Source: Mesorhizobium huakuii | GTDB taxonomy: Bacteria > Pseudomonadota > Alphaproteobacteria > Rhizobiales > Rhizobiaceae | Reading direction: 5' to 3' | NCBI RefSeq assembly: GCF_014189455.1 | Contig: NZ_CP050296.1 | Coordinates: 5,824,001-5,888,000 of the forward strand | Length of the DNA stretch: 64,000 nt | In this document: positions 22,666 to 27,395 of the stretch, piece by piece | Position numbering within the stretch: the stretch's first letter is position 1 | Layout: each line of letters opens with the position of its first letter | Position numbers and translations under genes: made by a program | Notes under the pieces: model-generated | Databases searched by the model: none | What the model saw: the letters and a program-made list of their open reading frames with translations, nothing else | Told to the model about the DNA's origin: nothing

Positions 22666-22721
22666 TGGTGCGGACGACGGGAATCGAACCCGTACGATCA
22701 GAGATCGAGGGATTTTAAGTC
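22666..22721 (-). pseudogene. tRNA-Leu(UAA) 3' half, separated from its 5' half
   Basis: Read on the minus strand this is the 3' part of a class II tRNA. It has GACTTAAAA (anticodon loop CTTAAAA, anticodon UAA), the 3' anticodon strand TCCCT, a variable arm CGATC-TCT-GATCG, a T arm ACGGG-TTCGATT-CCCGT, acceptor strand CGTCCGC, discriminator A and encoded CCA. Its own 5' flank does not pair with TCCCT. The matching 5' half is at 23820-23858. Together they form a perfect 86-nt tRNA-Leu. Confidence 0.88.
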
Positions 22722-22903
22722 TCTTTTTCTGCGGTGCTTCCCGCTCAATAGCCTGAAAAACCAAGACTTCGAGCTGATGGTGAAGTCCGACTTTCTCCCA
22801 CATGCGTGGGAAATCCCCACGATATTTCCCACACAATCATGTGTGCGAGCATGCTCCCTTGCTCTTTGCAAAATCCCACACCACGCGTACATGTGCGGGC
22901 ACT

Positions 22904-22988
22904 GCGGGCGTGGTGAAATTGGTATACACACCGGACTTAAAATCCGGAGGCCTCGGCCATGCGGGTTCAAGTCCCGCCGCCCGCACCA
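22904..22988 (+). tRNA. tRNA-Leu(UAA), intact, carried by the insertion
   Basis: An 85-nt class II tRNA including encoded CCA. The acceptor GCGGGCG/CGCCCGC and anticodon stem CCGGA/TCCGG around CTTAAAA (anticodon UAA) pair fully. So do the variable arm GGCC-TC-GGCC and the T arm GCGGG-TTCAAGT-CCCGC; the discriminator is A. Its sequence differs clearly from the split tRNA in all stems. It would supply the UUA/UUG-reading function lost by the split gene. Its start is 16 bp upstream distance from the RusA-like ATG, counted from the tRNA end. Confidence 0.95.
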
Positions 22989-23004
22989 CTAGGTCAGTTG
23001 CTGT

Positions 23005-23574
23005 ATGCGATTTGAGTTGTTTTTCTTGGGACGGATACCGTCGGGCAACAAAGGTGGCCCGCACTGGAACTTTGCCGCCGACTTCCGGACCCAGATGCAC
23101 CACCAGCTTGTTCGCCTCTGGAAAACTAACCCACTTAGTGAGCACACAAAGTGGTTATCCAAGCCCTACAACGACAACACGTGGGAGGGCGTCGCGACGT
23201 TCGAGCGACACGGCTTGGACTTCGTGGTCGTCGCGAGCCAGCGCGTTTCACTATCCATCAAGATGGATATTCATTTTTATGAACCTGCCGGCGAGTTGTC
23301 GGTGGCAAGTGACGTTGCCGATGTCGACAACAGGGTCAAAGTCCTATTCGATCTTTTGAGACTACCCGACAATCCCAAACATGTTCCACAGGGGTTGGTG
23401 CCACACTATTGCCTGATGGAGGATGATCGCCTCGTTTGGGAACTGACGGTCAAGCGTCATAGGCTCCTTCGCACAGTGGAGACAGCGGAGTACATGACAA
23501 GGCTTGATATTAGCGTCCTTCCATCTCGCGGGGCGATGGGAAATCTGTCAATCGTAGACACCTCGGTCTACTAG
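23005..23574 (+). CDS. RusA-like Holliday-junction endonuclease homologue
   Basis: The 189-residue product begins LFFLGRIPSGNKGG, like the RusA N-terminal strand. It has VADVDNRVKVLFDLL (D106, D108, N109, K112) and MEDDRLVWELTV (D140, D141, E146), matching the DxDN...K and later Asp of RusA-type resolvases. RusA cuts Holliday junctions and is typically phage-encoded with about 120 residues. The extra length here is an insertion around residues 40-60 and a C-terminal tail. The start is 16 bp after the tRNA, so transcription may be shared. Composition is less GC-rich than neighbours. Confidence 0.6.
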   Translation: MRFELFFLGRIPSGNKGGPHWNFAADFRTQMHHQLVRLWKTNPLSEHTKWLSKPYNDNTWEGVATFERHGLDFVVVASQRVSLSIKMDIHFYEPAGELSVASDVADVDNRVKVLFDLLRLPDNPKHVPQGLVPHYCLMEDDRLVWELTVKRHRLLRTVETAEYMTRLDISVLPSRGAMGNLSIVDTSVY

Positions 23575-23819
23575 CAATCGTCTAATCCAAGGTTTGGAGC
23601 CTGATATTTCTCCCACATGATTTCCCACATGGTCCCTTGCGCGCTGCAATAGTCGCTCGAGCGGGAACGTTGCACTTCTACACGCAACAATCTTAGCAAA
23701 AACAGTAGGTTGGTATCACAACTTCAGGTAGTTAGACATATAGGTGCAACCGTAAGGTCTATGACCAACAGTTCTGGTATGCTAAAGCATTGTTTTTGTT
23801 GACGACGCATCGACCAATT

Positions 23820-23858
23820 TTTTAAGTCCCTTGCGTCTACCAATTCCGCCACGTCCGC
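23820..23858 (-). pseudogene. tRNA-Leu(UAA) 5' half
   Basis: Read on the minus strand from 23858 this gives acceptor GCGGACG, D arm GCGGAATTGGTAGACGC, then AGGGA and CTTAAAA. This is the 5' part of the tRNA whose 3' part lies at 22666-22721. Beyond the loop the sequence becomes AAAAAATTGG, which does not pair, so no tRNA is formed locally. The promoter side (23859 onward) still belongs to the original locus. Confidence 0.88.
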
Positions 23859-24997: not shown

Positions 24998-25387
24998 ATG
25001 AACAGCCCGGCTCGTCTCATCGCTGCAGTAGCCATCCTGCTGCTCGCTTGCGGCCTCGCCATGGCCGAGCCATTGACGCTCGCCATTGCCAAGGCAGCGG
25101 TTGTTTCCGATCAAGCGTCCGGGCAGATGGTGCTCAGCCTCAAGATGACAGCGGACAGTGCAAAGGCGTTCGCTGACTTCACCAGGGTGAACATCGGAAA
25201 GGTGGTCGATCTCAGCATCGACGGCGCCGTGGTGATGTCGCCGCGGCTGATGGAGCCGATCATCGGTGGCGAGATCATGGTCGGCGGAACATTCGCGCCG
25301 GGCGAACTCGAGCGGATCGTCGAAAAGATCTCATCCGGTGGTGTCAGCGTTACGGTCGATGCGAGAGCCGAGCAACCGGGCGGGTGA
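24998..25387 (+). CDS. Periplasmic SecDF P1 head-like domain protein
   Basis: A 129-residue protein starting MNSPARLIAAVAILLLACGL (signal peptide). The mature part resembles the head subdomain of the SecD P1 region: LSLKMTADSAKAFADFTRVN, GKVVDLSIDGAVV, then VGGTFAPGELERIVEKI. It occurs without the SecD membrane part, as in other rhizobial stand-alone copies. The role is unknown. An upstream in-frame extension is not protein-like. Confidence 0.7.
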   Translation: MNSPARLIAAVAILLLACGLAMAEPLTLAIAKAAVVSDQASGQMVLSLKMTADSAKAFADFTRVNIGKVVDLSIDGAVVMSPRLMEPIIGGEIMVGGTFAPGELERIVEKISSGGVSVTVDARAEQPGG

Positions 25388-25697
25388 AACAATCGCCGTC
25401 CGCAAACTGGTCCTTGGATATCTGTTCGTCTCTCCCGATATCAGTCCGGGCGGCAAACTGAAGGAGCATTTCATCGTGGACGTGTCCGGGCCTGACAGAA
25501 TGACAATCACCTTGATCGGCGGCCCCACCGCGCTCATCGAGATCGCCGGGATCCGCTTTCTGACCGATCCGACTTTCGACGTGCCCCAAGCTTATGACGC
25601 GGGCGCAGTCCGGCTGGTCAAGCAATCCGGTCCGGCCATTGGTATCGACAGTTTGCCGCCCATCGATCTGGTGTTGCTCAGCCATGACCAGCACCTA

Positions 25698-26748
25698 GAG
25701 CATTTTCCGTGAACGCCGAGTCACATTTGGGATTCACGCGGTGGCGGAAGTCTGTTTCATTTTCCCTGTGATTTGCAGGGAGATGACGATGACACGCAGC
25801 TTGAGTGCGGACCTTCGCGGTCGGGTGATTTTGGCTATATCGGAGGGTGTTTCGACGCGGGAGGCAGCACGCCGGTTCCGGATCGGGATTGCTACGGCGG
25901 GGAACTGGTATCGCCGCTATCGCGAGACGGGTGAGATGGCGGCACGCAAGCAGGGCCAACCGTCGCGCTCGAAGCTTGATCCTCACGAAGCCTTCATCCT
26001 CGGCCTGATCGAGGAGACGCCCGACATCACTCTGGCGGAGATTGCCGAGAGGCTGGCGGCCGGGCATGGCGTGCGCGTGGTTCCTTCGACGATCTGGATG
26101 TTTCTCGACAGGCGCTGCGTCACGTTTAAAAAAAGACGGCGCATGCCAGCGAACAACAGCGCCCCGACGTCAAGGCGCGCCGTTGCGCCTGGTTCGACGG
26201 CCAGCTCGATCTCGACCCCGAGAAGCTGATCTTCATTGATGAGACTGCGGCCTCCACCAAGATGGCGCGGCTGCGCGGGCGGGCCAAATGTGGCGAACGC
26301 TGCCGTGCGCCGGTTCCTCATGGTCATTGGAAGACCACGACCTTCACCGCTGGACTGCGGCTGAACGGCCTGACCGCACCGATGCTGCTCGACGGGCCGA
26401 TGAACGGCGCCGCCTTCCTGGCCTATGCCGAACAGGTGCTCGCGCCTGAACTTTCTCCCGGCGACATCGTCGTCATGGACAACCTGCCGGCTCACAAGAT
26501 CACCGGCGTTCGCGAGGCCATCCAAAGGACCGGCGCACGGCTTCTGTTGCTGCCGCCATATTCGCCCGACTTCAATCCCATCGAGATGGCGTTCTCGAAG
26601 CTCAAAGCCCTACTCAGAAAAGCAGCCGCCCGCTCCATCGATCAACTCTGGTCCGTCATCGCCGACTGCCTCGACGCCTTCAAACCGGCCGAATGCCGAA
26701 ACTACTTCGAGGCAGCCGGGTATGACCCGGAGTAAGTCGAATCTGCTC
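25698..26748 (+). mobile_element. IS630-family element 1
   Basis: The 1051-bp element is flanked by the TA duplication typical of IS630/Tc1 (25696-25697 and 26749-26750), and the host frame is restored by removing it. Its ends start GAGCATTTTCCG and end in the complement of GAGCAGATTCGA, an imperfect inverted repeat. It carries one transposase in two frames. It differs in sequence from the second IS630 element at 29213-30255. Confidence 0.9.
25783..26735 (+). CDS. IS630-family transposase, two frames
   Basis: The first frame holds an HTH ([21 protein letters not shown]) and a second winged-helix part. It reaches FKKRRR at an A7 run (26128-26134). A -1 shift there continues [20 protein letters not shown] to [18 protein letters not shown] (first Asp), then [12 protein letters not shown] (second Asp) and [20 protein letters not shown] (Glu). 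This is the usual DDE order and the usual programmed shift of this group. Transposase activity is plausible. Confidence 0.9.
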
Positions 26749-27395
26749 TAGACAACCTCGATCATTCAGGTCGTGCATTCCTGCCTCGCGCCTCTCGAGT
26801 GCTCACGACCGAGGTTGGTGCAGGGCGCTTGGGCGGCTCGACGGAGGGGCTGGCTCCCTGGCAGAGCGTTGAAGTTGATGTATCGGATGGCCGGCGCCTA
26901 TGTGTGACGGCCACGCCCGCGCGGCACGGTCCACATGGCATTGAGCCGATCAGCGGCGATGTTGTCGGCTTCGTCTTATCACTCGATAGCGAAGGTGGCC
27001 CGAGTGTCTACATCTCAGGCGACACTGTCTGGTTCGACGGCGTGGCCGAAGTCGCGCGCCGTTTTGACGTCAGGGCCGCGATCCTTTTCACTGGCTCGGC
27101 CAGGCCACGCGGCGCCTTCCATATGACCATGGACAGTAATGACGCGATCGAGGCGGCCAATGCCTTCTCCGATGCGACGATCATCGCGATCCACAATGAG
27201 GGTTGGCAGCATTTCACCGAGACGCAAAGCGAGCTTGCCAATTCCTTCAAGGCGCTCGGTATCGCAGGGCGTTTGAAGCTTCTGGAACGTGGCATTGCCG
27301 TCGACTTGCAATTGTGAGGCCGTTCAAGCCGGTCGTCACCTCTGGCTACGCGCGCCGACATTTGCGAGACTGTTCGTAACCGAAGGAATCGCCTG

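Follow-up and report, generated by a model that had tools for sequence, protein, structure and literature searches.

Several kinds of mobile elements resemble the locus that we describe here. tRNA-dependent lysogeny has been published for phages (Guerrero-Bustamante and Hatfull 2024; PMC10865867). In rhizobia, prophages of the vTRX32-1 group, which are 42-45 kb long with a 12-bp core, split a tRNA-Leu gene and bring a tRNA-Leu (PMC8631192), while S. meliloti prophages like vB_MloP_Lo5R7ANS sit at tRNA-Leu(UAG) (PMC11476347). There are also prophages at tRNA-Leu(UAA) that rebuild the tRNA (PMC12429752). Two broader classes are the cis-mobilizable elements, or CIMEs, as defined in PMC5704250, and the phage satellites (PICI, PICMI, and tycheposons; PMC11389934).

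In the 64,000-nucleotide stretch of the Mesorhizobium huakuii genome that we analyzed (the window), a tRNA-Leu(UAA) gene is split in its anticodon loop by an insert of 1,107 bp (Table 1). We think that this insert is probably a non-autonomous, deletion-derived mini-element of the tRNA-dependent kind that is mobilized in trans.

Table 1. Features of the split tRNA-Leu(UAA) locus, with positions in the window
Feature	Positions	Strand	Basis
Host tRNA-Leu(UAA) 5' half, tRNA positions 1-39, core GACTTAAAA at 23820-23828	23820..23858	-	
Host tRNA-Leu(UAA) 3' half, tRNA positions 31-86, core GACTTAAAA at 22713-22721	22666..22721	-	
Integrated mini-element (probable), 1,107 bp, with a boundary ambiguity equal to the 9-bp core	22722..23828	.	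Intact site in relatives
Right-hand arm-type-like repeats, in the interval between replacement tRNA and core: TCCCAC at 22796, 22827, and 22874, GTGGGA at 22806	22796..22879	.	
Replacement tRNA-Leu(UAA), 85 nt with CCA	22904-22988	+	ARAGORN; Rfam RF00005, 65.9 bits
RusA-like protein (putative), 189 aa	23005..23574	+	ORF, model, alignment
Left-hand arm-type-like repeats: two TCCCAC copies spaced 12 bp apart (23611 and 23623)	23611..23628	.	

The split gene and its replacement

Rejoining minus-strand positions 23858-23829 and 22721-22666 gives 86 nt that ARAGORN calls as tRNA-Leu(taa). These joined halves are identical to the intact gene of relatives, at 86/86 nt, in all 30 loci that we fetched, which were drawn from 41 genomes with an equal 99% match to the host tRNA query. 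The insert is flanked by the two copies of GACTTAAAA, and neither junction has a complete host tRNA: the att core is short, it lies within the tRNA, and the tRNA is not rebuilt. A preliminary description of this locus had placed the split at these positions and had claimed that the host tRNA is broken with neither end rebuilt, while the element supplies a complete tRNA of the same isotype; all of this was borne out. The 1.1-kb element has one clear ORF. Searches of it with Pfam and PHROGs found no structural families of phages, and with four integrases as queries, the best tblastn match to it had E = 0.27.

Because 30 of 30 relatives are identical and the split layout recurs at 12 other loci, we exclude a chance split. 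The recurrence in other genomes also argues against an assembly artefact. Group I introns occur in the anticodon loop of tRNA-Leu(UAA), which speaks for an intron-like insert that is spliced from the tRNA. Against this, the insert contains its own tRNA on the other strand, and the window has no Rfam intron match at the gathering threshold. We rejected a group I intron, as the sole Rfam match in the window at that threshold is the element tRNA. An artefact or a spliced insert is, in our judgment, extremely unlikely.

The anticodon stem of the element tRNA is CCGGA/TCCGG, versus AGGGA/TCCCT in the host gene. The element tRNA is identical (85/85) in three of the other elements described below (L083, L086, and L088) and not identical in two (L082 and L085). 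It is the only intact tRNA-Leu(UAA) that we found in the genome by Rfam, ARAGORN, and pattern searches. Of the 48 tRNA hits that Rfam gives for the genome, ARAGORN calls all but L015; one of these 47 calls has no assigned amino acid. The other leucine calls have the anticodons TAG, CAA, CAG, and GAG, and next to the unassigned call is an odd one of 75 nt that reads tag. Two pattern searches of the genome returned the host 3' half and the element tRNA, along with a single TTAAGA match at which ARAGORN calls no tRNA (as is also the case for one extra match in G007), and they returned no further complete gene with a TAA anticodon. Because tRNA-Ile(GAT) and tRNA-Ala(TGC) are absent among the 48 hits, this list of tRNAs may be incomplete.

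The cell's dependence on the element tRNA is supported by gene content, i.e., no other intact gene was found. UUA is rare here (TTA occurs at none of the 1,664 codons of four host ORFs of the window and at one codon of the element ORF), so the essentiality of tRNA-Leu(UAA) rests on established decoding rules. In a sigma-70 scan, the element tRNA had no predicted promoter.

The preliminary description also compared the element to an addiction device. The destruction of the host tRNA and its full replacement stand, but this comparison does not, because both host halves are still perfect, so that precise excision would give the original tRNA gene back. Also, the ORF matches no toxin family in Pfam or PADLOC. 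Harm would be expected only from imprecise loss or from mutation of the element tRNA.

A family of mini-elements at the same site

We found mini-elements at 13 loci: L001 (the window's locus), L082, L083, L084, L085, L086, L087, L088, L089, L090, L138, L139, and L142. They are spread across Mesorhizobium, Pseudohoeflea, and three other genera, and each has a split gene and its own tRNA-Leu(UAA). Counts given for 12 elements exclude the M. sophorae locus (L083), a composite. We tallied 61 genomes in the genus: a full-length match is present in 52, the gene is split in 7 (G000, G007, G022, G025, G027, G029, and G039), and 2 are unresolved (G014 and G024). A junction pattern, which misses junctions with a T after the core, was run on 394 genomes of the family, where it matched 6, and on 385 of the class, where it matched 2; G000 is in both sets. 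The pattern yielded mini-elements in other genera (G170, G203, and G315), Pseudohoeflea again, and two loci that resemble larger islands (in G442 and G872). In the 12 further element-bearing genomes, a tRNA pattern found element-type tRNA sequences in every case and the host 3' half in 10; it did not match the diverged host half in G101 and G022.

The two larger loci (L140:1533-1837 in G442 and L143:2733-3052 in G872) have the host 5' half followed by a complete tRNA-Leu whose insert resembles a group I intron (RF00028: 44.7 and 44.5 bits versus a cut-off of 50, E about 2e-10). L143 has a full tyrosine integrase ORF between the host 5' half and the intron-bearing tRNA-Leu. An intron in the anticodon loop of a replacement would likewise remove the att core. 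Islands at the same tRNA-Leu(UAA) site in L092, L094, L095, L096, and L097 have an intact tRNA along with a displaced 5' or 3' half, and in L095 we noticed by eye the end of an integrase-like ORF. Elsewhere in the window (25266-27317), and again by eye from the ORF list, 25266-25712 and 26799-27317 look like halves of one metallo-hydrolase, with ORFs that resemble a two-part IS transposase between them (25741-26735).

In two relatives, G021 (L060) and G012 (L054), the site is empty, with an intact gene between syntenic flanks on both sides. The preliminary description had asked for a check of such sites and of other elements of equal layout, and the 12 further loci are of that layout. When the host halves are rejoined, with the core taken from the 5' half, 10 of the 11 loci tested give tRNA-Leu(taa), and at five loci (L001, L082, L087, L088, and L089) the result is identical to the allele of the genus. 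Because the rejoined halves are mostly undecayed, most of the insertions look recent. The elements have two layouts. The replacement tRNA of type A elements (L001, L082, L083, L084, L085, L086, L088, and L139) lies antisense to the host gene; in the six for which we measured it, the spacer that separates this tRNA from the host 3' half is 155-182 bp. In type B (L087, L089, L090, L138, and L142), the replacement tRNA runs in the host direction and is followed within a few bases by the next 3' half.

In the eight elements that we measured, the common core was 9, 9, 10, 10, 11, 13, 16, or 17 bp. A core that ranges from 9 to 17 bp between elements implies that there is no fixed-length target duplication, so we rejected a transposon with a 9-bp duplication. 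Taken alone, the 9-bp direct repeat in L001 would fit a transposon that hit a tRNA by accident, but all 13 loci are at the identical position of tRNA-Leu(UAA) genes, and we consider such an accident next to impossible. Some copies may be dead because their cores (the left-end core of L086 is lost, and those of L082 and L138 are imperfect) or their outer host halves (L090) have decayed.

The end zones of the window's element hold six copies of its repeat, GTGGGA (p = 0.002). Across the 12 elements, the motif GTGNNAA (or GTG..AA) occurs in pairs that are phased at 11-12 bp: there are 13 such pairs, in 8 of the elements, versus a mean of 0.068 and a maximum of 2 in 1,000 shuffles. As these data had themselves suggested the motif, we ranked it against all 1,024 motif forms, and it was the best of these (6 of 9 non-redundant elements versus 3 for the next). 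The phased pair is absent from 4 of the 12 elements, including the window's own, and a test based on the maximum 6-mer arm repeat was weak, with p <= 0.01 in only 4 of 12. Statistically, the repeats are there, and they look like the arm sites of an integrase, although we infer that role. The phages with tRNA-dependent lysogeny also have pairs of putative arm sites (PMC10865867).

Cargo and its apparent exchange

The protein encoded by the window's element fails the Pfam cut-off for RusA (12.2 bits versus 22.8), and a sequence search of the PDB with a profile of the RusA-like proteins found nothing relevant. Its structural model (pLDDT 76) does have a RusA fold. The top three PDB matches are to RusA D70N, with probabilities of 0.97-1.00, and the next match after RusA has a probability of 0.18. 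The TM scores of the RusA D70N matches, by target, are 0.55-0.70, and the best E value is 5.6e-3, with none at E <= 1e-3. The acidic catalytic motif of the RusA family is D-x-D-N-x-x-K, and the 189-aa protein has it: D106, D108, N109, K112, D116, and D141 are invariant in 8 of 8 aligned RusA-like proteins. In three comparisons among three copies of the genus, dN/dS for this ORF is 0.11-0.15, which indicates purifying selection.

The RusA-like gene is present at 4 of the 13 loci (L001, L082, L083, and L084; tblastn, E <= 1e-3). In M. qingshengii, M. sophorae, and Pseudohoeflea suaedae, the tRNA and the RusA-like gene are in the same order. The RusA-type loci in Mesorhizobium and Pseudohoeflea share their gene order and are 1,193, 1,209, and 1,195 bp long (host halves included), with RusA-like proteins that are 42% identical between the two genera.

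RusA resolves Holliday junctions, and it is not known to act as a sequence-specific homing enzyme. Nevertheless, the RusA fold of the cargo, and the fact that this gene and the tRNA stay adjacent across genera, could be explained by homing: the nuclease would cut, or help to recombine at, an uninterrupted tRNA-Leu(UAA), and the recoded tRNA would rescue the cell. We rejected this as a general mechanism because 9 of the 13 loci lack the RusA-like gene, and the phased arm-like repeats point to an integrase instead. Overall, homing seems very unlikely to us.

The other elements carry different cargo. A family of 147-aa proteins is found in L086 and L139, with a truncated copy in L088 (tblastn). 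L086 also encodes an LRR protein, and L088 encodes an XRE/CI-like HTH protein. L087 encodes a DUF7683 protein, and L090 was assigned likewise by homologous DNA. L142 encodes a DUF4145 protein that resembles PD-T7-4 (PADLOC, E = 7e-8), which suggests, from its sequence, a role in defense against phages. Of the six cargo proteins that we ran through PADLOC, this one matched PD-T7-4, the HTH protein matched RmrA, HTH_VI, and capH, and four had no match. The ORFs that we scanned from L085, L089, and L138 had no family above the cut-off, and we recognized no packaging or replication genes among the cargo proteins scanned. Neither the RusA-like nor the 147-aa protein had a match in 50,697 phage records or a confirmed match in IMG/VR. 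When we searched plasmids with the window's element, the matches listed were all tRNA-sized, with none covering 80%.

The spacers between the tRNA and the core are nearly identical in three elements: 169/180 for L001 and L088 (aligned flank 76%), 175/180 for L086 and L088 (73%), and 168/180 for L001 and L086 (80%). Because these spacers are so similar while the flanks diverge and the cargo differs, it appears that the mini-elements exchange cargo.

Succession, proposed mobilization, and known systems

The most surprising feature of these elements is the serial replacement of the tRNA. In G022 (L090), the inner element is like that of L088 (89% over 847 columns, including some 60 bp of flank) and carries a tRNA of the L089 type. 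This tRNA is cut in its anticodon loop by an L087-like element whose intact tRNA is identical to that of L087. When rejoined in a script, the cut tRNA is a tRNA-Leu(taa) and matches L089's at 84/87. So in this one genome, and shown once, an element split another's replacement tRNA and supplied a third. Furthermore, the 0.92-kb L087 element occupies the host tRNA in G027, and its relative in G022 is 88% identical, end to end, over 962 columns. As elements of the L087 type are in two different tRNA genes, the same mini-element must have entered both, and because independent deletions to the same end-to-end form are unlikely, movement as a mini-form is favored.

Alternatively, the elements might all be immobile relics, i.e., stubs of former tRNA-dependent prophages or islands from which the indispensable tRNA and chance leftovers remain. 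Decay would predict what we see in L088 (a remnant of an integrase, a CI-like HTH gene, and a truncated 147-aa cargo gene) and the decayed junctions of L086, L082, and L138, and larger elements of this kind do exist. On the other hand, relics would not be expected to share one mini-form from end to end in two different tRNA targets, or to have RusA loci of near-equal size and order in two genera. The mostly undecayed host halves, the purifying selection on the RusA-like cargo, and the two cargo families without a match in phages also argue against relics. We consider this explanation unlikely for the family as a whole, though well worth weighing, and both can hold, with some copies being relics and others mobile.

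The larger counterparts include phages. Rhizobium phage Pasto (T7-like, annotated as Autographiviridae) has a tRNA-Leu(taa) and an integrase. Its attP-like GGGGCACTTAAAATGCTCC is 174 bp from the antisense tRNA-Leu(taa), which is the type A order, and 6 of the 11 GTGCCA repeats in its first 12 kb are within 388 bp at the attP-like site. We predict that Pasto integrates at the tRNA-Leu(UAA) site. At one end of IMGVR_UViG_3300014019_000012 (40.5 kb) is the host 5' half, and at the other are an integrase and a tRNA-Leu(taa). The record also has a terminase, and the 22.8 kb of it that we examined has no host 3' half. In G077, an integrase, a tRNA-Leu(taa), and a stretch like the 3' half follow in a row, which is the type B order, immediately preceded by an integrase; we did not find the host 5' half in 19 kb. 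Of eight IMG/VR records with the 5' junction, two have a tRNA, one a tRNA-Leu(taa) and the other a tRNA-Phe(aaa). IMG/VR has no exact match to the element tRNA and no confirmed match to the Pasto integrase.

With four integrases as tblastn queries against the 13 elements, the only match at E <= 1e-3 was a broken fragment in L088 (E = 1.6e-4), so at least the L088 lineage derives from an integrase bearer. A short integrase-like stretch in L083 (profile E = 0.03) probably comes, judging by eye, from an L095-like island at this site. A search of the 13 element-bearing genomes for relatives of the Pasto and G077 integrases found no close one of either: 10 genomes have a single relative at E <= 1e-20, with 38-42% identity over the C-terminal ~230 aa, and 3 have none. 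A tyrosine recombinase (L173; G000:C1:5179682-5180341) that shares 37-42% identity with Pasto-type integrases over its C-terminal ~220 aa is found in 51 of the 61 genomes of the genus that we searched; the G000 copy lies some 2 kb away from tRNA-Ser(GCT). A Pasto-like integrase (57%) in G014:C85 (L177) is on the same contig as a tRNA-Leu(tag) and is possibly from a prophage of the tRNA-Leu(UAG) kind.

We propose the following mechanism for the mini-elements. The att site would share with the host tRNA-Leu(UAA) only a short core, namely the anticodon loop CTTAAAA and a few stem bases, so that integration destroys the host tRNA. The element's tRNA-Leu(UAA), with its recoded stems, would then take over the decoding of UUA: its anatomy is clear, and its expression is presumed. 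Because the element encodes no integrase, a tyrosine integrase acting in trans must be needed for it to enter and to leave the tRNA gene, and the likeliest donors of this enzyme are tRNA-dependent phages of the same site, such as those of the Pasto type. The mini-elements probably arose by internal deletion from relatives with an integrase, and today they would have a cargo of one or a few genes, which they exchange. Elements may also follow one another in the same cell, with the newcomer splitting its predecessor's tRNA, as in G022. In its fullest form, our proposal is that integrase-less cassettes in the tRNA-Leu(UAA) genes of rhizobia and their relatives combine an attP with arm sites, a recoded tRNA, and swappable, possibly anti-phage, cargo; that the integrases of phages sharing the site move them; and that they take over the decoding of UUA one after another. 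We offer this whole picture tentatively, as it is slightly more apt to fail in some part than to hold throughout.

If these ideas are correct, then a single-copy tRNA gene has been captured and passed between tiny mobile elements, and cells come to depend on foreign tRNAs. tRNA-dependent lysogeny would extend from whole phages to integrase-less elements of about 1 kb, and rhizobial genomes would have an overlooked slot for cargo. We expect that tools that find islands by a rebuilt tRNA and an integrase would miss the mini-elements. Among the papers listed in our search of mainly open-access literature, we saw none that describes such mini-elements without an integrase.

As for the known systems, the mini-elements share with PICI, PICMI, and tycheposons a small size and dependence on a helper, but they lack an integrase, and we recognized no packaging or replication gene in the cargo that we scanned. 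Like CIMEs, they keep attL and attR and have lost the integration genes, and there is accretion and tandem insertion. However, CIMEs derive from ICEs or IMEs, whereas here the larger relatives that we saw include phages, and the tRNA is apparently needed by the cell. The rhizobial prophages at tRNA-Leu genes (PMC8631192, PMC11476347) have the same host order and the same logic as the mini-elements, but the vTRX32-1 group are whole phages, and the S. meliloti prophages use a different tRNA-Leu. The phages with tRNA-dependent lysogeny (PMC10865867) also have a short att core in a tRNA and a tRNA of their own; they are whole phages with their own integrase, while the elements here are about 1 kb, with few cargo genes, no integrase, and serial replacement. 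So the principle is already known from tRNA-dependent lysogeny, and what is new is the integrase-less forms of about 1 kb, their exchange of cargo, and the succession of one tRNA by another.
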